The translations under genes were made by a program, and so were the position numbers. Below the pieces are notes generated by a model, which saw only the letters and a program-made list of their open reading frames with translations, made no database searches and was not told where the DNA came from. Of a stretch of DNA of 35,218 nucleotides, positions 7,259 to 35,218 are shown piece by piece. The stretch lies in assembly GCA_022865785.1 (NCBI GenBank), contig JALHTJ010000184.1:1-35218 (forward strand). The letters are read 5' to 3'. This DNA is from Candidatus Aminicenantota bacterium. GTDB lineage: Bacteria > Acidobacteriota > Aminicenantia > UBA2199. How positions within the stretch are numbered: the stretch's first letter is position 1; every line of letters begins with the position of its first letter.

Positions 7259-7729
7259 TCAATTATTGGCCAGCAGTTGGTCGATGAATTGGTAATATTC
7301 CGGCGGTGCCGCGGAAATCTCCACTCCAATGTCTATTAAATTGGAAAAAGAGTGTTTGCTGTCAACCCAGCGGATGATCCCTTTTATGGTAAAAGCTTTT
7401 CCTCCGTTATCCAGGGTGATGTCTATGTGGGGATTGTTGTGGGGGAGGGGAGTGATCAGTTTCATGCCGCCTTTGGAAATGTTGCTTATCCTGGCTGTTT
7501 CCTGGTTGATTTTTGCCATCATTCTGATATTGATCCTTTTATAAGCGCGCTTTTCATCCTGAGTCAGCGGCAGGCGGGATGGATCGCGGATTTCCTCATG
7601 GTTGGTTGCGGATCTGTCCTTCTGCGTATTGTCTCCCAGGCCTTTTTGCAATCCGAAACCGCAATGCGGACACATCAAAGCCTGGTCGGACACTTTGCCG
7701 TGGCATTCGCTGCATTGTATCAATGCCAT
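7259..7729 (-). CDS. Zinc-ribbon/PilZ fusion protein, copy 1
   Basis: The 156-residue protein begins with a zinc ribbon (CSECHGKVSDQALMCPHCG, four cysteines in two CxxC knuckles). After a variable linker (~30-58) a PilZ domain follows, with KRAYKRINI, NISKGGMKL and a conserved tail GVEISAAPPEYYQFIDQLL. The start follows AAGGAGAAG, and a near-perfect promoter is at 7757-7785. It is about two-thirds identical by eye to the neighbouring copy 2, with the linker the main difference, so the pair arose by tandem duplication. A role as a c-di-GMP-responsive adaptor is inferred from the PilZ part; the ribbon may bind a partner. Confidence 0.82.
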   Translation of the reverse strand: MALIQCSECHGKVSDQALMCPHCGFGLQKGLGDNTQKDRSATNHEEIRDPSRLPLTQDEKRAYKRINIRMMAKINQETARISNISKGGMKLITPLPHNNPHIDITLDNGGKAFTIKGIIRWVDSKHSFSNLIDIGVEISAAPPEYYQFIDQLLANN

Positions 7730-7855: not shown

Positions 7856-8326
7856 TTAATTATTGGCCAGCAGTTTGTCGATGAATTCGTAGTATTCCGG
7901 CGGCGCTGCGGAGATTTCCACTCCGAAATCGATCAGGTTGGAGAAAGTGTGTTTGCCGCTGACCCAACGGATCGTACCCTTCATTTCAAAAACCTGCTCG
8001 CCATTATCCAGGGTGATATCTACCTCCGGGATTTTGGGAGTGAAGGGAGAGGCCAGTTTCATGCCGTATTTGGAAATATTGAAAAGCATGGCTGTTTCCT
8101 GATTGATCTTGATCATCATTTTAATATCGATTCTTTTGTGGGTTCGTTTTTCTTCGTGGATCTGGGCCATATCCGCCTTGTTGAAGACCTCCTGATGGGC
8201 GGTCCTGTTCCTTTGCAGCCGCAGGAGATTTTCCAGGGTTGGCGACATGCCAAAACCGCAATGGGGGCACATCAAAGCCTTGTCGGAGACCTTGCCTTTG
8301 CACTCCTTACAATTAATCAATGCCAT
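7856..8326 (-). CDS. Zinc-ribbon/PilZ fusion protein, copy 2
   Basis: The 156-residue protein has the same length and layout as copy 1: a zinc ribbon CKECKGKVSDKALMCPHCG, a divergent linker, and a PilZ domain with KRTHKRIDI, NISKYGMKL and the tail GVEISAAPPEYYEFIDKLL. It starts after AAGGAGAG. Sequence similarity between the copies continues about 30 bases past the stop codons (TTATATTTTCC...GGTTTCTTTT), which helps define the duplicated unit. The gene is 97 bases downstream of the REC-HD-GYP gene on the same strand. I found no clear promoter of its own, so it may be co-transcribed with that regulator. Confidence 0.82.
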   Translation of the reverse strand: MALINCKECKGKVSDKALMCPHCGFGMSPTLENLLRLQRNRTAHQEVFNKADMAQIHEEKRTHKRIDIKMMIKINQETAMLFNISKYGMKLASPFTPKIPEVDITLDNGEQVFEMKGTIRWVSGKHTFSNLIDFGVEISAAPPEYYEFIDKLLANN

Positions 8327-18460: not shown

Positions 18461-19399
<939 letters not shown>

Positions 19400-19686: not shown

Positions 19687-19763
19687 TGGTAGCGGGGGTA
19701 GGATTTGAACCTACGACCTTTGGGTTATGAGCCCAATGAGCTACCTGACTGCTCCACCCCGCG
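19687..19763 (-). tRNA. Initiator tRNA-fMet (CAT)
   Basis: Read on the minus strand, the 77-base gene folds into a standard cloverleaf: acceptor CGCGGGG, D-arm GAGC/GCTC, anticodon arm TTGGG CTCATAA CCCAA, T-arm GTAGG TTCAAAT CCTAC and encoded ACCA. Two initiator signs are present: three G-C pairs at the base of the anticodon stem (GGG/CCC) and an unpaired first position (C1 opposite U72). The CCA end is encoded. A near-consensus promoter lies 13 bases upstream. The spurious minus-strand open frame across it is not a gene. Confidence 0.96.
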
Positions 19764-20177: not shown

Positions 20178-20510
20178 TTGAAAAAAATCATCTTGCTGAT
20201 CCTATGCGTTTTTTCAATAACCGCATGCGCCGTCCATAGCTACCGCTCCGATTTCGAGTTTGCCGGCAAGTTGGCCAAAGAGGGGCTGTGGCAGGAGGCC
20301 TCTTACCGCTTGCAGAAAGCGCTGGCAGCGGGAAATGACTCGGCCGCCCTGCACAACAACATGGCCGTGGCCCTGGAAAGCCTGGGTCGCTACGAGGAGG
20401 CCCAGCGCCAATATGAGCTGGCTTTGAAACTGGCTCCCGGCCATCCGCAGATCCAGAACAACTTCAGCCAGTTCAAAAAAAACCAGAGGAAGGACGACAA
20501 TGAAAAGTAA
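20178..20510 (+). CDS. Small TPR lipoprotein
   Basis: The 110-residue protein starts at TTG (20178), fixed by GGGAGG seven bases before it and by the signal peptide that begins right there (KKIILLILCVFSITAC). The lipobox cysteine is Cys17. The rest holds two TPR-type helix pairs (FEFAGKLAKEGLWQEASYRL and ALHNNMAVALESLGRYEEA) with the typical ALKLAPGHPQI turn. TPR lipoproteins usually scaffold envelope complexes. Its 3' end overlaps the next lipoprotein gene by 11 bases, so the two are coupled. Confidence 0.85.
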   Translation: MKKIILLILCVFSITACAVHSYRSDFEFAGKLAKEGLWQEASYRLQKALAAGNDSAALHNNMAVALESLGRYEEAQRQYELALKLAPGHPQIQNNFSQFKKNQRKDDNEK

Positions 20511-21177
20511 GATCATCCCGCTGCTGCTCCTGGCCGGCCTGAGCGTGGCCTGCGTTGAATCATTCGTCTCCGTGCCCATCCCTTTCAGTGAGGAGAAAAT
20601 CGTCGATTTTAACGCTTTCCGTGATGTGTTTTTCATCGACTTTGTCTGTGATATCCCCGAGGCCGATTTGGCTGCCGAGACCGAGATCCGCAGGACATTC
20701 GCCGAAGAGATACCTTTCGCCATCGACAAGAAGATCATCCTGCTCGAGCCCGACCAGTGGGCCATGATCCGTGATATCCTGCGGCGCTACCGTTTGGCCG
20801 TGGATATTCAGTACGACAACAGCGTCTTTTTCCACAAGGTTTTCCAGGCCCACCCCAAGGCGCTTTTTTTCACCGGCAAACTGAAACTGAACATCAAGAA
20901 AATGGGCGTAGTCAAGGAGACCAGGGATGAAATGGGCAAAAAGAAAAACGCTTATGAAACGGTACAGATGTGGGAAATGGAAATGAAGGTTTTTCTCATC
21001 GACGGCGACAAGGCCAAGATCCTCAAACAGGAAACGTATACGGAGAAATTGGAACCAGGCAGCGCCAGCGCGGCCCAATTTAATTTCAACAGCATGTTCG
21101 CCAAAATGACAGCCAAGCTGACCGCGGCCCTGCAACCACGCAAAGCACTCCAGGAAAGATTTATTTTATACAAATAG
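20500..21177 (+). CDS. Lipoprotein of unknown function
   Basis: The 225-residue protein starts after AGGAAGGA and overlaps the TPR gene by 11 bases. The signal peptide KSKIIPLLLLAGLSVAC ends in a lipobox (Cys18). The mature part opens VESFVSVPIPFSEEKIVDFN and has alternating strands and helices. A central segment FFTGKLKLNIKKMGVVKE and MWEMEMKVFLIDGDKAKIL resemble the beta-strand layout of small envelope assembly lipoproteins. I do not recognise a family. It is 9 bases upstream of the zinc peptidase/barrel gene. The three therefore form an envelope operon and may act in one outer-membrane process. Confidence 0.78.
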   Translation: MKSKIIPLLLLAGLSVACVESFVSVPIPFSEEKIVDFNAFRDVFFIDFVCDIPEADLAAETEIRRTFAEEIPFAIDKKIILLEPDQWAMIRDILRRYRLAVDIQYDNSVFFHKVFQAHPKALFFTGKLKLNIKKMGVVKETRDEMGKKKNAYETVQMWEMEMKVFLIDGDKAKILKQETYTEKLEPGSASAAQFNFNSMFAKMTAKLTAALQPRKALQERFILYK

Positions 21178-21186
21178 GGTGGCAAT

Positions 21187-24033
21187 ATGAAAAAAACAAC
21201 ATTCGCCTTTTTCTGTCTGTTCTGCGCCGCGGTCCTGTTCGGGCAGTATTCCTTTTATTACGGAAAAAACAAGATCGTTCGCCAGGCCTTCGCTTGGAAA
21301 TATGTGGAAACCAAGAATTTCCGCATTTATCACTATATAGATGACCCGGAACTGCTGGGCCGGGTGGCCCGCGAAGCGGAAAAGGCCTATGAAAAGCTCT
21401 CCTCGCTTTTGAACGTGACCATCGAGGAGAAGACCCCGATCATTTTTTACAACAAACAGACCGATTTGGAGCAAACCAACCTGTATCCGGGTATCATCCC
21501 CCCCGGCAGTTTCGAGGGCTTCAACGAACCCATCGGTCACCGCCTGGTGATTTACGGCAACCGCAGCAGCGAAGACCTGGGGCGGCTGATTACTCATGAG
21601 TTGAGTCATTCTTTCGAATACGCCATTCTATACAAGAACCGCTCCTCCGGCATGTTCAATTTCAACCGCCCGCCCCTTTGGGTCATGGAGGGTTTCGCCG
21701 AATTTATGACCGACTACTGGGACAGTTTCAGCCTGATGACCGTCATCGACAATGTGCTCAGCGACCGCATCCCCGAGATCCAGGATGACGGCGACATCCA
21801 GACCGCCTTCGGCACCAACCGCACTCCCTACGATTTCGGCCATTTGATGTACGAATTTTTTTATGAAAAATTCGGCAAGAAAGGTGTTCGTGACTTGCTG
21901 TACAGCCAGCGGCGTCCGGCCTTGGTCAGCAAGCGCAAGACTTTCCTGGAACAGTTCAATTTCGTGCCCAAGACCTTCAATTATGAATTCAAAAAATACG
22001 CCCGCAACCGCTTCAAGACCTTCATCGGCCGCGAAAACCCCGAGGATTACAGCTTCATCATCGGCCCCGATTTCCCGTTTGCCTATTCTTTTTCCCACCA
22101 GGTCTCCCCGGGCGGTGAACTGCTGGCCGTGGTCACGGTCAATTACCGCACTTACAAGATCGAAATTATCCTGGTCTCGCTCAAGGACGGCAAGGTGATC
22201 AAGAATGTCACCCCGGGTTACAAATCCACTTATGACGGCATCGAAATCAAGTTCGTCCCCTCCGACGGCCGTTCCTTCAGCTGGGACCGTCGCGGCGAAA
22301 ACATCGCTTTCTTCGTGCGCAAGGAGCTCGACTCGTTCCTGGTCGTGCTCAACGCCATCGACAACCGGGTGCTGAAGGAATTCAACATCGGCGCCATCCA
22401 GAAGCCGAGCTCACCGGTTTTCCATCCCAGCCAGGACCGTCTGCTTTTCACCGGCATCGAGGGCATCCAATCCTTCCTGTACTCCCTGGATATGGGCAGT
22501 GGCCAGATCCGCAAGCTGAGCGACGGCCGAACCTACATCAAGGCGGTCGACATCAGCGGCGACGGTGAAAAGGTCGTGTACTCGGCCGGATTCGGCGATT
22601 TCGACAAGCTGTATCTGGCGGCCAGCGAAAGCCCCGACCTGGCCATGCGGCTGACCGACGGCGAATACAACGATATCGCCCCGGCCTTTTCCTTGGACGG
22701 CAAGACCGTGTATTACAGCTCCGATGAACTCGGCGCCTTCAACATCTGTTCGCTGGACCTGGAGAACAAGATCATTTACCGCCACAGCGATGTGCGCACC
22801 GGCAATTTCTTTCCGGTGGAGATCCCCAAGGATAAAGGCAAGCTGGCCATCTCTTCGTTCCATAAAGGTAGTTTCCTGCTTTTCAAAAAAGACGTCAGCA
22901 GCTATTTGACCAAGAAAGCGGTCGAGTTCACCGCCATTCAGTCCGCCGCCGCCCCGGCGGCCGCTGCTGAGGAAGCGGCCATGCCCTTCACATTGAGCGT
23001 AAAAAAATACAAGCCCTTTGAAAAGCTGATCATCACCAGTTTGCCCCCGGTCACGGTGGGCGTGGACACCAACGGCGGTTTCTTTGGCTCTTCCTATTTG
23101 AACGTGACCGATATGCTGGGTGACCACAACTTCATATTCTATCTGGCCTCCTTTTACGGCTACCGTTCCTACCATTTGGCCTATTTGAACCAGCGGCGCC
23201 GCCTGCAACTGTACACCCATCTTTTTTCCGAAAGCGATGCCTATTATTATCCCTACGTCAGCAACTATTACCTTTCGCTGCGCAGCCGCATCGGCGCCGA
23301 ATTCGCCCTGATCTATCCTTTCAGCCGCTCCACCCGCGCCGAACTGACCATGTCGGCCTACCACCAGGAAGAGGACTCTGATCTGCTCTTTTACCAGCAG
23401 GAACTTCCCTACGGCCAGTTCTTCAACGGCTTCGCCCTGCCGGTTTCGGCGACACTGGTATCCGAAACCACCCGCTTCTCTTACTATGGACCGAACCAGG
23501 GCCACACCTTTCGGCTGAGCGTCGGCAAATATTTCAAGCTTTCTTCCAAATCGCTGGATGCCTATACCCTGGAAGGCGATTTCCGCAAGTACGTGCGCCT
23601 TGACAACTATTCCCTGCTGGCCTTCCGCTTGAGCGGATTCTATTCCGGCGGCAAGAACTCCCTGCTGTACTGGAGCGGCGGCAACAATACCCTGCGCGCG
23701 GCAGATTTTCGCAGCTTGGTCGGCAACAAAGGATTCTTTTTCAATGCCGAATTCCGCTTCCCCCTGGTCCATGCCGCCCTGACCCCGATTGGCGTCGTCG
23801 GCCCGGTGCGCGGCGTGTTCTTCTTTGATTTCGGCGGCCTGTGGTTCAACGATCAGGAATATCGCATTTTCGAGCCTGGCAAGTTTCAGCTGAAAGACTC
23901 ACTGTCCTCTTATGGCTACGGCATCGAATTTTTCCTTTTCGGCTATCCCCTGCACTTCGAATGGGTCTACCGGACCGATTTCAAGAATAAGGAATACAGC
24001 GGCGTTAATTTCTGGATCGGCTTCGATTTTTAA
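21187..24033 (+). CDS. Zinc peptidase/beta-propeller/outer-membrane barrel fusion
   Basis: The 948-residue protein has a signal peptide (KKTTFAFFCLFCAAVLFG). Residues ~35-285 form a gluzincin-type peptidase: HELSH (137-141) with a third ligand Glu168 in WVMEGFAEF. Residues ~290-560 carry TolB/PD40-type propeller repeats (SPGGELLAVVT, HPSQDRLLFTG, SGDGEKVVYSAG, SLDGKTVYYSSDE). After an alanine-rich linker (~580-590) the C-terminal ~350 residues form a beta-barrel. That barrel has Omp85-like motifs (GGNNTLRAADF, NAEFRFPL) and a final Phe, the outer-membrane insertion signal. A surface-linked peptidase or assembly factor is inferred. RBS GGGTGG. Confidence 0.88.
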   Translation: MKKTTFAFFCLFCAAVLFGQYSFYYGKNKIVRQAFAWKYVETKNFRIYHYIDDPELLGRVAREAEKAYEKLSSLLNVTIEEKTPIIFYNKQTDLEQTNLYPGIIPPGSFEGFNEPIGHRLVIYGNRSSEDLGRLITHELSHSFEYAILYKNRSSGMFNFNRPPLWVMEGFAEFMTDYWDSFSLMTVIDNVLSDRIPEIQDDGDIQTAFGTNRTPYDFGHLMYEFFYEKFGKKGVRDLLYSQRRPALVSKRKTFLEQFNFVPKTFNYEFKKYARNRFKTFIGRENPEDYSFIIGPDFPFAYSFSHQVSPGGELLAVVTVNYRTYKIEIILVSLKDGKVIKNVTPGYKSTYDGIEIKFVPSDGRSFSWDRRGENIAFFVRKELDSFLVVLNAIDNRVLKEFNIGAIQKPSSPVFHPSQDRLLFTGIEGIQSFLYSLDMGSGQIRKLSDGRTYIKAVDISGDGEKVVYSAGFGDFDKLYLAASESPDLAMRLTDGEYNDIAPAFSLDGKTVYYSSDELGAFNICSLDLENKIIYRHSDVRTGNFFPVEIPKDKGKLAISSFHKGSFLLFKKDVSSYLTKKAVEFTAIQSAAAPAAAAEEAAMPFTLSVKKYKPFEKLIITSLPPVTVGVDTNGGFFGSSYLNVTDMLGDHNFIFYLASFYGYRSYHLAYLNQRRRLQLYTHLFSESDAYYYPYVSNYYLSLRSRIGAEFALIYPFSRSTRAELTMSAYHQEEDSDLLFYQQELPYGQFFNGFALPVSATLVSETTRFSYYGPNQGHTFRLSVGKYFKLSSKSLDAYTLEGDFRKYVRLDNYSLLAFRLSGFYSGGKNSLLYWSGGNNTLRAADFRSLVGNKGFFFNAEFRFPLVHAALTPIGVVGPVRGVFFFDFGGLWFNDQEYRIFEPGKFQLKDSLSSYGYGIEFFLFGYPLHFEWVYRTDFKNKEYSGVNFWIGFDF

Positions 24034-24122
24034 GCGCGCCAGCATCGACCGGCCCTTTTTCGTCCCGGCAGGATAATTGACTTTGTCCGGGGAAAATGCG
24101 AAAATGTAAAGGGCAGAATGAG

Positions 24123-25124
24123 ATGCTGATCAACCATACATCGAAACAGGTAACCGCAAAAATAGTCTATTACGGCACCGGACTGGGTGGAAAAACCACC
24201 AACCTGCAGTATATTTATTCCGTGACCAGCCCGAATACGCGCGGTGAGCTCGTCTGTATGGAAACCGAGATCGAGCGCACCCTTTTTTTTGACCTGCTGC
24301 CCGTCAATGTCGGCCTGATCAAGGGCTACGAAACCAAGTTTCAACTGTACACAGTTCCCGGGCAGGTTTTTTACGATTCCACCCGCAAACTGGTCTTGAA
24401 AGGCGCTGACGGCATCGTTTTCGTGGCCGACTCCCAGGAATTGATGGAACAAGCCAACCTGGAGAGTTTTGGCAACCTGAAAGAAAACCTGGGATTCTAC
24501 AACCATCAGATCGAGGACATTCCCCTGGTTTTCCAATACAACAAGAGGGACCTGAAAAGCATTTCATCCCTGGACAGACTGAACGGCAATTTGAACGGGT
24601 TGCAGCGGCCCTACTTTGAGGCCGTGGCCCGCAACGGCCGCGGGGTCATCGAAACCCTGCGCGAGATCTCTGGCCTGACCCTGGTCAAGATCAAGGATGC
24701 GCTGGAACACGCTACGGTTCCCGCCAAGAATGTAGCCGTGCAGTTCGATGTGAATCATGACCAGCGGATGGTCAAGATGGAAGATCTGCCTGTAAAAAAA
24801 ATCAACATGGAACAAATAGCCGCCAGCGATGCCGGGCCGGAGCCGCCTGCGAAAGCTGAGACTGTCCCGCCGGTCGCAGTTGAAAAAAACGACGGCGCAG
24901 CCAGGGAGTCAGGCCAGGCTAAACCGTTCAATCCATCTTTCGGCGAGTTGCTGAACCGCTTGGAAGATCCTACACGCATCACAAAAATTGAAAAGATCAC
25001 CGCCGGCAACGGCCGCCTGACCGTTGAGGTCAAGGACAGCGATGGCCGCAGCCTCCGTTCCTTCGACATTGTCCTGAATCCCGAAACCAAGAAGGTAAAT
25101 ATCATCCTAGATGTCAAAAATTAA
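24123..25124 (+). CDS. mglA: MglA-type small GTPase with C-terminal extension
   Basis: The 333-residue protein is read from 24123 because MLINHTSKQVTAKIVYYG matches the usual MglA N-terminus; an in-frame ATG at 24096 adds nine atypical residues. The GTPase domain (1-195) has the P-loop GTGLGGKT (18-25), the MglA hallmark TVPGQ (77-81) in place of DxxGQ, and NKRD (140-143). MglA controls cell polarity and type IV pilus motility. Normal MglA ends near residue 195; here a linker rich in Ala, Pro and Glu (~200-270) and a ~65-residue beta-rich end (FGELLNRLEDPTRITKIEKI) are added. No mglB/roadblock gene is adjacent. It starts an overlapping operon. Confidence 0.93.
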   Translation: MLINHTSKQVTAKIVYYGTGLGGKTTNLQYIYSVTSPNTRGELVCMETEIERTLFFDLLPVNVGLIKGYETKFQLYTVPGQVFYDSTRKLVLKGADGIVFVADSQELMEQANLESFGNLKENLGFYNHQIEDIPLVFQYNKRDLKSISSLDRLNGNLNGLQRPYFEAVARNGRGVIETLREISGLTLVKIKDALEHATVPAKNVAVQFDVNHDQRMVKMEDLPVKKINMEQIAASDAGPEPPAKAETVPPVAVEKNDGAARESGQAKPFNPSFGELLNRLEDPTRITKIEKITAGNGRLTVEVKDSDGRSLRSFDIVLNPETKKVNIILDVKN

Positions 25125-26502
25125 ATCCGTCCTGCTGCTTGCAGTTTTTTCCTTGCTAATTGCCTGCGCCGCATCCCGGCCCACCCTGGTTCCCGCCGCA
25201 GATCCGCTTGCTGCCGGAGGTCCGCCGGCCAGGGCCGCGGTTTATTTCCAGCAAGGCAAAACCTGTTTGGAAAAGGGCGATATGGCGGCTGCCAGGTCCT
25301 GTTTTAACCAAACCATGGATGTGCTCCTCGATGCTCGTGTTGGTGGTCAAGACGGCGACAGCAAAAATATCCTGAACGATTATGTTAAAAAAATTGCCGA
25401 TATCGAGTTGCATTTTTTGAAGGACAAAAACAGTCCGGAAAATGGCCAGCATGAGGCCTTTCTCGACCAGGTCATCTCCACGCCTCTTTTTCTGCCCACG
25501 GCAAAGGATGTTTTGGACCTGAAGCAGAAAGTAAGTGAAGCCGCGGTGGTTTCCTACAGCATGCCGGTGATCGTCAATTCTCAGGTGGTTTCCTTTCTCA
25601 AGGCCTTCCAGACCATCCGCCACGACGGCATCCAGCGGGCCCTCGACCGCATGGTCGAGTACATAGCTCCCTTCAAGGAGATTTTTCGCCAGTACGAAAT
25701 CCCGGAAGACCTGGTTTACTTGCCGATCATCGAGAGCGGTTTTCGTGTCGATGCCACTTCCCGGGCCCGGGCCAGGGGGGCCTGGCAATTCATGGCCGCG
25801 ACCGCCCGGATCTTCGGGTTGCGGGTGGATTGGCAGGTCGATGAACGGCTGGATCCGTTCAAGGCCGCCGCTGCCGCGGCCCGCTTCATGAAGGATCTCT
25901 ATCAGGAATACAACGATTGGTACATCGTTCTGGCCTGCTACAACGGCGGCCCGCGCCGGGTTAAAAAAGCCATGCGCGTACTGAAAACATCGGATTTCTT
26001 CACCATTAACCAGACCCGGCATATCCGTCGCGAAACCAAGAACTATGTGCCGGCCTTTTTGGCCTCGCTGATCATTGCCCGCGCTCCCCAGGAATATGGT
26101 TTCAAGATAAGCGGCGCTGAAGCGATTTTTACCGGCAGCAAAACCGTGGTTGTGCCGTCGCCGGCCTCGTTGTCGCATATCGCGGTCCTGCTGCAAATTT
26201 CCTATGCTGATCTGAAAAAGCTTAACCCTGAATTGCTGCGGGACTTCACTCCCAGCAACTTGAGTGAATACAGCTTGCGCGTCCCGGCTCTCGCTGATGA
26301 AGCAGCCCTGGCCGGCCTGGAAAGAATCCCGCCCGCAAAGATCCCGAAATACAATAGCTATCGGGTCCGTCCCGGGGACAGTCTATATTCCATCGCCCGC
26401 CGTCATGCTACATCGGTCAGCCAGATCAAGAAGGTCAATGGTTTGAAATCAAACTTGATCAAGCCGGGCATGAACCTGATTATTCCCCGGGGGGAAGGAT
26501 GA
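25111..26502 (+). CDS. mltD: MltD-like membrane-bound lytic transglycosylase
   Basis: The 463-residue lipoprotein (SLLIAC, Cys19) has a helical N-terminal region (~40-170), then a lytic transglycosylase domain. Its catalytic Glu208 sits in LPIIESGF, with RARGAWQFMAATAR and LACYNGGPRRVKKA typical of the family. A C-terminal LysM repeat (YRVRPGDSLYSIARRHATSV and NLIKPGMNLIIP) binds peptidoglycan. It cleaves the glycan chain and releases 1,6-anhydro products. Its start overlaps the mglA gene by 14 bases and its stop overlaps comM by four, so translation is coupled. Near an MglA GTPase, wall remodelling for pili or an envelope machine is a plausible role. Confidence 0.93.
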   Translation: MSKIKSVLLLAVFSLLIACAASRPTLVPAADPLAAGGPPARAAVYFQQGKTCLEKGDMAAARSCFNQTMDVLLDARVGGQDGDSKNILNDYVKKIADIELHFLKDKNSPENGQHEAFLDQVISTPLFLPTAKDVLDLKQKVSEAAVVSYSMPVIVNSQVVSFLKAFQTIRHDGIQRALDRMVEYIAPFKEIFRQYEIPEDLVYLPIIESGFRVDATSRARARGAWQFMAATARIFGLRVDWQVDERLDPFKAAAAAARFMKDLYQEYNDWYIVLACYNGGPRRVKKAMRVLKTSDFFTINQTRHIRRETKNYVPAFLASLIIARAPQEYGFKISGAEAIFTGSKTVVVPSPASLSHIAVLLQISYADLKKLNPELLRDFTPSNLSEYSLRVPALADEAALAGLERIPPAKIPKYNSYRVRPGDSLYSIARRHATSVSQIKKVNGLKSNLIKPGMNLIIPRGEG

Positions 26503-28031
26503 TCAGCCGGATCAATTCGGCGGTTCTCAACGGCCTGGAAGTGTTGGCCACCGAGGTCGAAGTCGGTTTCTCGCGCGGCATTCCCGGCATTGTCATCGTC
26601 GGCCTGCCCGACAATGCCGTCAAGGAGAGTCGCGAGCGGTTGAAACTGGCGATCAGCCAGGCCAATTTCGATTATCCCCAGGCCACGAAAATCGTGATCA
26701 ACCTCTCACCGGCCGATGTGCGCAAAGAGGGCTCGGCCCTGGACCTGCCCATGGCCGTGGGTATCATCAAGAACCGCTACCGCATGGAAAGCCCGGCCTT
26801 TGCCGACCTGCTGTTTTACGGCGAGCTGAACCTCAACGGTGATCTGAACCCGGTAAAGGGCGTGCTGAATATTTCCTTATATGCCCGTGAAAAAGGTTTC
26901 CGCGGCATCGTAATCCCTTTTGAAAACCGTGTGGAAGCCCAGTTTGTCAAAGATATCGAAGTATATGCCTTGAAAAATCTCACCCAGGTCATCCAGTTGA
27001 TCGAAAATCCCGCCGCTTTCACCCCCTGCCATTCCGAGATAATCAAGGAACCTCCCGGGTTTTACGATAATGATTTTTCCGAGATTAAGGGCCAGTATAT
27101 GGCCAAGCGGGTAATGGAGATCGCCGCCGCCGGGTTTCACAATGTCCTGATGATCGGCTCCCCGGGATCGGGAAAATCCATGATCTCCAAAGCGCTGCCA
27201 TCCATCCTGCCTGACATGAGTGATGATGAAATCCTGGAAACATCGTTGATCTACAGCGCTGCCGGTCTCCTGGGCGAGAAGGGCGGTTTGGTCTGCGGCC
27301 GGCCCTTTCGTTCGCCGCACCATACCATTTCTGATGTCGGCATCAGCGGCGGCGGAAAATACCCGGTACCAGGTGAGATCTCCCTGGCTCATAACGGTGT
27401 GCTCTTCCTGGACGAGATTCCCTATTTTAAAAAATCAGCACTGGAAGTGCTGCGCCAGCCGCTGGAAGACGGCAAGATAACCGTTTCCCGTTCCCTGAAG
27501 TCTTCCACATTCCCGGCCCGATTTATGCTGGTGGCGGCCATGAATCCCAGCCAGGACTCGGTCGGTTTGGGGGAAGCGGGTGGTTACGCCGCCAGCCATT
27601 CCCAAAAAAGCCGCTACTATGCCAAGCTTTCCAAGCCATTGCTGGATCGCATCGACCTGCAGATCGAAGTGAAGAAGGTCAAACTGGACGAGATCACTTC
27701 GCCGGCAATGGCGGAGAGTTCCGCTGACATCAAGGAGAGGGTGGTCGCTGCCCGCAACCTGCAATTGCATCGTTTTAAGAACTTGAAAAAAAAGATATTC
27801 GCCAACGGCCAAATGCGCAATGCCGAGATCAGAAAATTCTGCCCGCTGGACGAAAGCGGCGGCCAGCTGCTGCGACTGGCCGTGGACAAGTTCGATCTGA
27901 GCGCCCGTGGTTATTTCAGGGTATTGAAAGTGGCCAGAACCATAGCGGATCTGGATGGAGTGGAGTCGATCACCGCCCGGCACGTGCAGGAAGCCCTGCA
28001 GTACAGATCGCTGGATTTAGCCCGTTTCTGA
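26499..28031 (+). CDS. comM: ComM/YifB-family Mg-chelatase-like AAA+ ATPase
   Basis: The 510-residue protein starts in an ATGA overlap with the previous stop. It has the family N-terminus (residues 1-170, GLPDNAVKESRERLKLAI, INLSPADVRKEGSALDLPMA) and an AAA+ domain with Walker A GSPGSGKS (220-227), GRPFRSPHHTISD, Walker B VLFLDE (301-306) and the C-terminal HVQEALQYRSLD. ComM is a hexameric helicase that extends branch migration in natural transformation. Its four-cysteine zinc motif is often absent or variable, and I do not see one here. The operon continues into the rhodanese gene after 48 bases. Confidence 0.95.
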   Translation: MISRINSAVLNGLEVLATEVEVGFSRGIPGIVIVGLPDNAVKESRERLKLAISQANFDYPQATKIVINLSPADVRKEGSALDLPMAVGIIKNRYRMESPAFADLLFYGELNLNGDLNPVKGVLNISLYAREKGFRGIVIPFENRVEAQFVKDIEVYALKNLTQVIQLIENPAAFTPCHSEIIKEPPGFYDNDFSEIKGQYMAKRVMEIAAAGFHNVLMIGSPGSGKSMISKALPSILPDMSDDEILETSLIYSAAGLLGEKGGLVCGRPFRSPHHTISDVGISGGGKYPVPGEISLAHNGVLFLDEIPYFKKSALEVLRQPLEDGKITVSRSLKSSTFPARFMLVAAMNPSQDSVGLGEAGGYAASHSQKSRYYAKLSKPLLDRIDLQIEVKKVKLDEITSPAMAESSADIKERVVAARNLQLHRFKNLKKKIFANGQMRNAEIRKFCPLDESGGQLLRLAVDKFDLSARGYFRVLKVARTIADLDGVESITARHVQEALQYRSLDLARF

Positions 28032-34238: not shown

Positions 34239-35218
34239 ATGAGAAAAATAATAGGACTGGCTTTGGCCGTCATTTTCCTTTTTTCATGGCAGTGGGCGAT
34301 CTCCGATGCCCGTTTGCTCAGATTCCCAAATATTAACGGTGACCTGGTCACCTTTGTCTATGCCGGCGACATCTGGTCGGTCCCGGCCGCCGGCGGTGAT
34401 GCCCGGCGCCTGACCTCGCACCCGGGGCTGGAGCTGTTTCCAAAAATCTCTCCCGACGGCCAATGGATCGCCTTTTCAGCCGAATACTCGGGCTCGCGCC
34501 AGGTTTATGTCATGCCGGCCGTGGGAGGCACTCCCCGGCAGCTGACCTATTACAATGATGCAGGCATCATGCCGCCACGCGGCGGTTATGATTATGTGGT
34601 CATGGACTGGACTCCTGACAGTGCCAAGGTCCTGGTGCGCTGCAACCGCACTCCCTGGGGCGAACGCATGGGCAAATATTATTTGATTCCCCTGGCCGGC
34701 GGCCTGGAAACCCCTTTGCAGATCCCTGAAGGCGGCGGCGCCTCCTTTTCTCCCGATGCCGGCAAGATCGTCTACACGCCCATTGAAAGGGAGTTCCGTA
34801 CCTGGAAACGCTACAAAGGCGGCCGGGCTCAGGATGTTTGGATCTATGATCTGAAAAACAACACTTCGCGGCGCTTGACCGATTTTGCCGGCAGCGACCA
34901 GCATCCGGTCTGGTTCGCAGACAAGATCTATTTCGTCTCCGACCGCGATCTGACCTTGAATGTGTATTCCTTTGACCTGAGAAATGACAAGATCGAGCAG
35001 GTCACGGCTCACAAGGATTACGATGTCCTGTGGCCCTCGGGACGGAACGGCCAGTTGGTGTATGAAAAGGGCGGCTATCTTTTCAAGCTGGACCTGGCGT
35101 CGGGACGGGAAAACAGATTGGTTGTCAACCTGAATTTCGACAATCCCGGCCTTTTGCCCTATTTCAAGAACGTCTCTGAATTCATTTCCAGTTATGACAT
35201 CTCTCCCAGCGGCAAGCG
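34239..35218 (+). CDS. Tricorn-like protease, N-terminal propeller part (runs off right edge)
   Basis: The frame starts at ATG 34239 after GAGGAGG and is open to the window end (326 codons). A signal peptide (KIIGLALAVIFLFSWQWA) shows export. PD40/TolB-type propeller repeats follow: GDIWSVPAAGGDARRLTSHP, then SPDGQWIAFSAE, VMPAVGGTPRQLTYYND and DIWIYDL-like DVWIYDL. This is the N-terminal six-bladed domain of bacterial tricorn proteases (DUF/S41 family), which should continue with a second propeller, PDZ and a C-terminal S41 peptidase outside the window. The catalytic part is not visible. Next to an aminopeptidase P, a role in peptide breakdown is plausible. Confidence 0.85.
   Translation, partial: MRKIIGLALAVIFLFSWQWAISDARLLRFPNINGDLVTFVYAGDIWSVPAAGGDARRLTSHPGLELFPKISPDGQWIAFSAEYSGSRQVYVMPAVGGTPRQLTYYNDAGIMPPRGGYDYVVMDWTPDSAKVLVRCNRTPWGERMGKYYLIPLAGGLETPLQIPEGGGASFSPDAGKIVYTPIEREFRTWKRYKGGRAQDVWIYDLKNNTSRRLTDFAGSDQHPVWFADKIYFVSDRDLTLNVYSFDLRNDKIEQVTAHKDYDVLWPSGRNGQLVYEKGGYLFKLDLASGRENRLVVNLNFDNPGLLPYFKNVSEFISSYDISPSGK

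Follow-up and report, generated by a model that had tools for sequence, protein, structure and literature searches.

A predicted zinc peptidase, a TolB-like propeller and an Omp85 barrel in one chain, coupled to two upstream lipoprotein genes in Acidobacteriota

What might a protein do in the cell envelope if it carries a zinc-peptidase motif, TolB-like repeats and an Omp85-like end, and do the two lipoprotein genes in front of it belong to the same system? A sequence-only reading of a 35,218-nucleotide stretch of DNA (the window) from a Candidatus Aminicenantes (Acidobacteriota) MAG raised both questions. The host of the protein is a little-known bacterium of soil and sediment. All results presented here came from sequence and predicted monomer structures, and the gene calls were simple ORF calls. 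Conservation counts and the AlphaFold2 input were based on an alignment (A2) of 38 homologous proteins that were 29-86% identical. The features of the locus, all on the + strand, were as follows.

20178-20510, +: partner 1, predicted TPR lipoprotein, 110 aa, TTG start; lipobox ITA-C, TPR Pfam models at E 1e-7
20500-21177, +: partner 2, predicted lipoprotein, 225 aa, with a PelC/CsgG/GNA1162/FlgT-like fold (model and Foldseek)
21187-24033, +: peptidase-propeller-Omp85 barrel protein (the big protein), 948 aa, ATG start
21187-21246, +: putative Sec signal peptide, residues ~1-20, with cleavage near LFGQ and without a lipobox (direct sequence reading)
21250-22071, +: predicted clan-MA (gluzincin-type) peptidase domain, residues 22-295; Peptidase_MA_2 weakly in homologues, weak M1 profile match
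21595-21609, +: HELSH zinc motif, residues 137-141, in helix 128-148 of the model
21688-21702, +: EGFAE, residues 168-172, in helix 164-174 of the model
22072-22941, +: TolB-like beta-propeller, residues ~296-585; PD40 E 9e-8, TolB matches
23023-24030, +: Omp85 barrel, residues ~613-948; Omp85 (PF01103) E 4e-9, ~16 strands in the model
23677-23712, +: GGNNTLRAADFR at the loop-6 position; R837 invariant in 38 homologues

The combination of HELSH and EGFAE, TolB-like repeats and an Omp85-like end in one 948-residue protein, as first read from the sequence, was borne out by the ORF, Pfam, AlphaFold2 and Foldseek, which agreed. In Pfam searches, PD40 (E 9e-8) and Omp85 (residues 700-948, E 4e-9) each scored above its cut-off. 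The AlphaFold2 model (pLDDT 84.6, pTM 0.81) had three folded domains, in which a helical peptidase domain was followed by the propeller, a linker and the barrel; according to this model, peptidase, propeller and barrel are joined in one chain. Residue Q20, at the end of the putative signal peptide, was nearly invariant in the homologue alignment.

The N-terminal domain fits a predicted clan-MA zinc peptidase. It has the HExxH motif and the Glu in a downstream helix that characterize this clan, and residues H137, E138, H141, W165, E168 and G169 did not vary in 38/38 homologues, the most distant of which was 29% identical; of these residues, E168 is likely to be the third ligand of the zinc. Profile matches were weak: Peptidase_MA_2 (PF13485) was found at E<=0.1 in 19 of the 38 homologues (best E 3e-6) and not in the window protein itself, and a peptidase-domain profile compared to the PDB matched the M1 aminopeptidase 3cia at E 0.013. 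PF00149 we take to be the calcineurin-like phosphoesterase family, not an HExxH protease. It is PF00149 that defines the 'Metallo' Omp85 subfamily in the main text of PMC4104836, and it is a different family from the HExxH peptidase described here.

The propeller matched TolB in the PDB both by sequence (E 5e-7) and by fold (Foldseek E 4e-10). TolB was its nearest relative, but TolB itself has neither a peptidase nor a barrel, and the TolB_N domain was absent from the 948-aa protein in a Pfam search. An Ala-rich linker of low confidence (residues ~586-600 in the AlphaFold2 model) separates propeller and barrel. Whether the C terminus was a barrel had been left to structure prediction, and a barrel of ~16 strands was predicted; among the listed Foldseek matches to the PDB, BamA came first and Sam50 followed, at E ~1e-9 to 6e-9. 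The C-terminal Phe was invariant, and GGNNTLRAADFR, with its invariant R837, presumably occupies the place of the Omp85 loop-6 (V/I)RGF motif. By Pfam, model and Foldseek, the C-terminal domain has the 16-stranded type of barrel of the Omp85 superfamily. POTRA domains, which are typical of the superfamily and not universal in it, were not found in the 948-aa protein by Pfam, and in the model the propeller leads straight to the barrel.

The two lipoprotein genes overlap by 11 bases, and the second ends 9 bases before the big gene. The AlphaFold model of partner 2 had a pLDDT of 88.7, and Foldseek matched it to HpaA (2e-6), PelC (2e-5), GNA1162 (2e-5), CsgG (3e-5), FlgT (2e-4) and LptE (1e-3). 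With E values from 2e-6 to 1e-3 and TMt values of 0.3-0.6, these matches place the modeled partner 2 in the PelC/CsgG/GNA1162 fold, a predicted fold that is that of outer-membrane-associated lipoproteins. By sequence, partner 2 had no usable match in the PDB, PelC and CsgG included. Among 27 homologues of partner 2, the FlgT_M Pfam model was detected in 6 (best 5.5e-5) and TolB_N marginally in 1 (E 0.12). A strict lipobox pattern missed most of these homologues, so the predicted lipidation rests on the signal-peptide Cys, which was kept in 25/27; at least two distant homologues are without it.

The two lipoproteins had been suggested as partners of the big protein, and both were found to co-occur with it across the phylum. 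Our sample was 198 Acidobacteriota genomes, orthologues of the big gene were called when the peptidase domain matched at E below 1e-80, and absence was judged from MAGs and profile searches. By this threshold, 88 of the 198 genomes carried an orthologue. Among 60 close relatives, 59 had a match, in a few of them to a divergent second type, and the named relatives were mostly Candidatus Aminicenantes MAGs. Adjacent partner genes were counted in the 87 loci that had enough upstream sequence. Both partners were present in 69 loci (as separate genes in 60 and fused into one polypeptide in 9), neither was present in 18, and one partner alone was found in 0/87.

A single FastTree run on the big protein placed the 18 loci without adjacent partners (L058, L060-L065, L067, L069, L097, L099, L101, L102, L106, L108, L110, L115 and L124) in one clade, which we refer to as the unlinked clade, and the fusions in two separate groups of 3 and 6. 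Each of the 18 genomes in the unlinked clade had a PelC-like gene at another locus, and a TPR gene stood beside it in 8/8 genomes inspected. At the level of whole genomes, 86 of the 198 had both the big gene and a PelC-like gene, 2 had the big gene only, 3 had the PelC-like gene only and 107 had neither, which corresponds to agreement in 193/198. The two genomes with only the big gene by threshold did have the partner in place when their loci (L049 and L055) were read. The three with only the PelC-like gene all belonged to one Aminicenantia family. A Fisher test on the 198 genomes overstates significance because the genomes are not independent; coupling is better supported by the unlinked clade and by the fusions than by this genome-level test. 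The big protein and its two partners are tightly coupled in evolution, and this co-occurrence points to a machine for upkeep of the outer membrane that has so far gone undescribed.

Several further observations concern the distribution of the genes. In one of the three genomes with only the PelC-like gene (L145, 6215-7299), the TPR-PelC pair lies directly before dnaA, where relatives have the big gene in between, and the big gene has apparently been lost there. The divergent second type (L148 on G055:C18, L133, L134 and L135) is ~26% identical, is 1020-1130 aa long and has the same three domains; no partner genes adjoined it in the 4 loci checked. It was the only type found in one Aminicenantia family (f4). 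Outside the phylum, a Salinibacter ruber plasmid encodes a peptidase-propeller protein without the barrel. We considered a version split into peptidase and barrel on this plasmid and rejected it, as the next gene encodes a carboxypeptidase and not a barrel. Relatives of the big protein were not found in a scan of viral contigs.

The source genome has separate genes for BamA (with five POTRA domains) and TolB, so the module is additional to them, and the idea that it replaces either one was discarded. Across genomes, the module was flanked by dnaA/dnaN, rpsP, topA or genus-specific genes. These neighbors included no conserved genes for a cargo or for polysaccharides, nor were pel genes seen there or curli genes nearby. 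The gene directly downstream of the big gene in the window (24096-25124, +) encodes an MglA-like small GTPase that is extended at its C terminus. After it come the genes for an MltD-like transglycosylase lipoprotein with LysM (25111-26502) and for a ComM-like Mg-chelatase (26499-28031). These three were conserved neighbors of the module within the genus only. The GTPase and the transglycosylase were considered as partners and set aside, given that the GTPase adjoins the module in the genus only. Elsewhere in the window, a tRNA-Met(CAT) gene on the other strand lies a short way upstream of the module (19687-19763, -), and a likely diguanylate cyclase with FHA and GGDEF domains is encoded nearby (18461-19399, +). 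Two adjacent 156-aa proteins with a zinc ribbon and a PilZ domain (7259-7729 and 7856-8326, -) are probably a tandem duplication, and another PD40 propeller protein, which looks tricorn-like, starts at 34239 and is cut by the window end (34239-35218, +).

The reading that we favor, with a probability of roughly 0.45, is that the products of the three genes form a single complex at the outer membrane, an anchored periplasmic protease that clips or removes envelope proteins. The big protein would be anchored in the outer membrane through its own Omp85 barrel, and the zinc peptidase would be held in the periplasm beside the TolB-like propeller. Propeller and lipoproteins could bind substrates and gate access, and the complex would then act where the outer membrane borders the periplasm, on envelope proteins that might be exported precursors or outer-membrane proteins that have stalled. 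We infer each of four elements here, namely, the periplasmic side, the physical complex, the proteolysis and the kind of substrate, and the barrel may be only an anchor. The three genomes in which a PelC-like gene is retained and no orthologue of the big gene was found are a counterpoint to the complex. A bolder version, which we put forward tentatively and hold to be somewhat doubtful, is that the module is a proteolytic machine of the outer membrane that is complete in itself and is ancestral in a large part of Acidobacteriota. It would then be an Omp85 system of another kind than BAM, TAM, two-partner secretion or PlpD, and its partners may be arranged as a ring or gate at the barrel.

The side of the membrane on which the peptidase acts was at issue from the start, as the sequence-only reading had allowed for a surface protease, with the peptidase outside the cell on its own barrel. 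Such a layout was proposed in the original PlpD model, and some Omp85 proteins do translocate proteins, according to the main text of PMC4104836. However, later work showed that the PlpD enzyme domain is not secreted, as had been assumed, but lies in the periplasm, as does the region N-terminal to the barrel in the Omp85 proteins that have been studied (PMC11116518), and the partners here look like periplasm-facing lipoproteins. On the precedent of these pre-barrel regions and of PlpD, peptidase and propeller are expected on the periplasmic side and not on the surface; the surface location was set aside, and we regard it as very improbable.

The main rival to the protease complex is a machine for export akin to PelBC or FhaC, in which the barrel would be a pore or translocase (like FhaC, or like PelB with PelC), the lipoproteins would form its periplasmic entry and the peptidase would trim cargo. 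The Foldseek matches of partner 2 to PelC, PelBC (9h80) and CsgG, all of them parts of outer-membrane export systems, are in line with this explanation, as is the retention of R837 at the loop-6 position, which is also found in translocating Omp85 proteins. We nevertheless consider it unlikely, given a neighborhood without conserved cargo or polysaccharide genes and a barrel whose listed Foldseek matches were BamA and Sam50. A degradative peptidase for general peptide turnover in the periplasm, with the barrel as an anchor only and the propeller as the kind of sieve known from tricorn and prolyl oligopeptidase, would find a parallel in the barrel-free relative on the Salinibacter ruber plasmid, but would leave the strict coupling to two dedicated partners and the strong conservation of the barrel unexplained; we think it distinctly unlikely. 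Less probable again is a BamA-like assembly factor without proteolysis, whose peptidase fold would serve as a binding scaffold. The Omp85 proteins studied so far do mostly assemble or translocate proteins (PMC11116518 and the main text of PMC4104836), but the three putative zinc ligands and the catalytic Glu, invariant in 38 homologues, would be needless in a scaffold.

For the favored protease complex, the distribution of LptD bears on the kind of substrate. LptD is the best-known substrate of BepA. It was present in 55/88 genomes with the module and in 72/110 without it (P 0.77), and LptD (PF04453) was undetected in 18/18 genomes of the unlinked clade, where TolB_N was present in 18/18. LptD thus does not track the module, the substrate of the module is probably something else and LptD-specific quality control, as by BepA, is disfavored.

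How does the module compare with known systems? PlpD and other patatin-Omp85 proteins likewise join an enzyme domain to an Omp85 barrel in one chain, but PlpD is a phospholipase with POTRA domains and no propeller, whereas the protein here has a peptidase and a propeller and no POTRA. In PelB/PelC, CsgG and LptD/LptE, an outer-membrane pore is combined with a lipoprotein of the fold of partner 2, and PelB also has TPR. In contrast to PelB/PelC and CsgG, the barrel here is of the Omp85 type, and at the sequence level no similarity of partner 2 to PelC or CsgG was detected. BAM and BepA of E. coli share the barrel, a propeller (BamB), a TPR lipoprotein (BamD) and an HExxH protease with the module; BepA, an HExxH protease with TPR, cleaves outer-membrane proteins stalled on BAM (PMC13067283, PMC7950410). 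In E. coli, however, these parts are separate chains, BepA belongs to M48 and has its own TPR, and there is no partner of the PelC/CsgG fold. The most likely role of the module is the processing or removal of envelope proteins, as in BAM plus BepA.

The closest published relatives are the WD40-Omp85 proteins, one of ten Omp85 subfamilies, which have a TolB-like propeller and were proposed to be BamA-BamB-like fusions (main text of Heinz and Lithgow 2014, PMC4104836). Beyond the main text of that paper, nothing on a combination of peptidase, propeller, barrel and partners appeared in the open-access literature, and full-text searches of this literature found no functional study of propeller-Omp85 proteins. 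The 948-aa protein falls within the subfamily as defined in that main text, with a propeller N-terminal to the Omp85 barrel and no POTRA, in addition to BamA. The sequence-only reading had called the protein unusual; this is only partly so, as it occurs widely in Acidobacteriota and propeller-Omp85 proteins had already been published. An HExxH domain or partner lipoproteins are unmentioned in the main text of PMC4104836, and the protein here differs in having an HExxH peptidase domain before the propeller and two coupled partner lipoproteins. With a peptidase and two obligate-looking partners named, an orphan subfamily from 2014 can be put to the test as a complex of three components. Little is known of envelope biology in this phylum, and some of its members are culturable. 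What is new is the coupling to two partners, and attention is best directed to the module of three parts.
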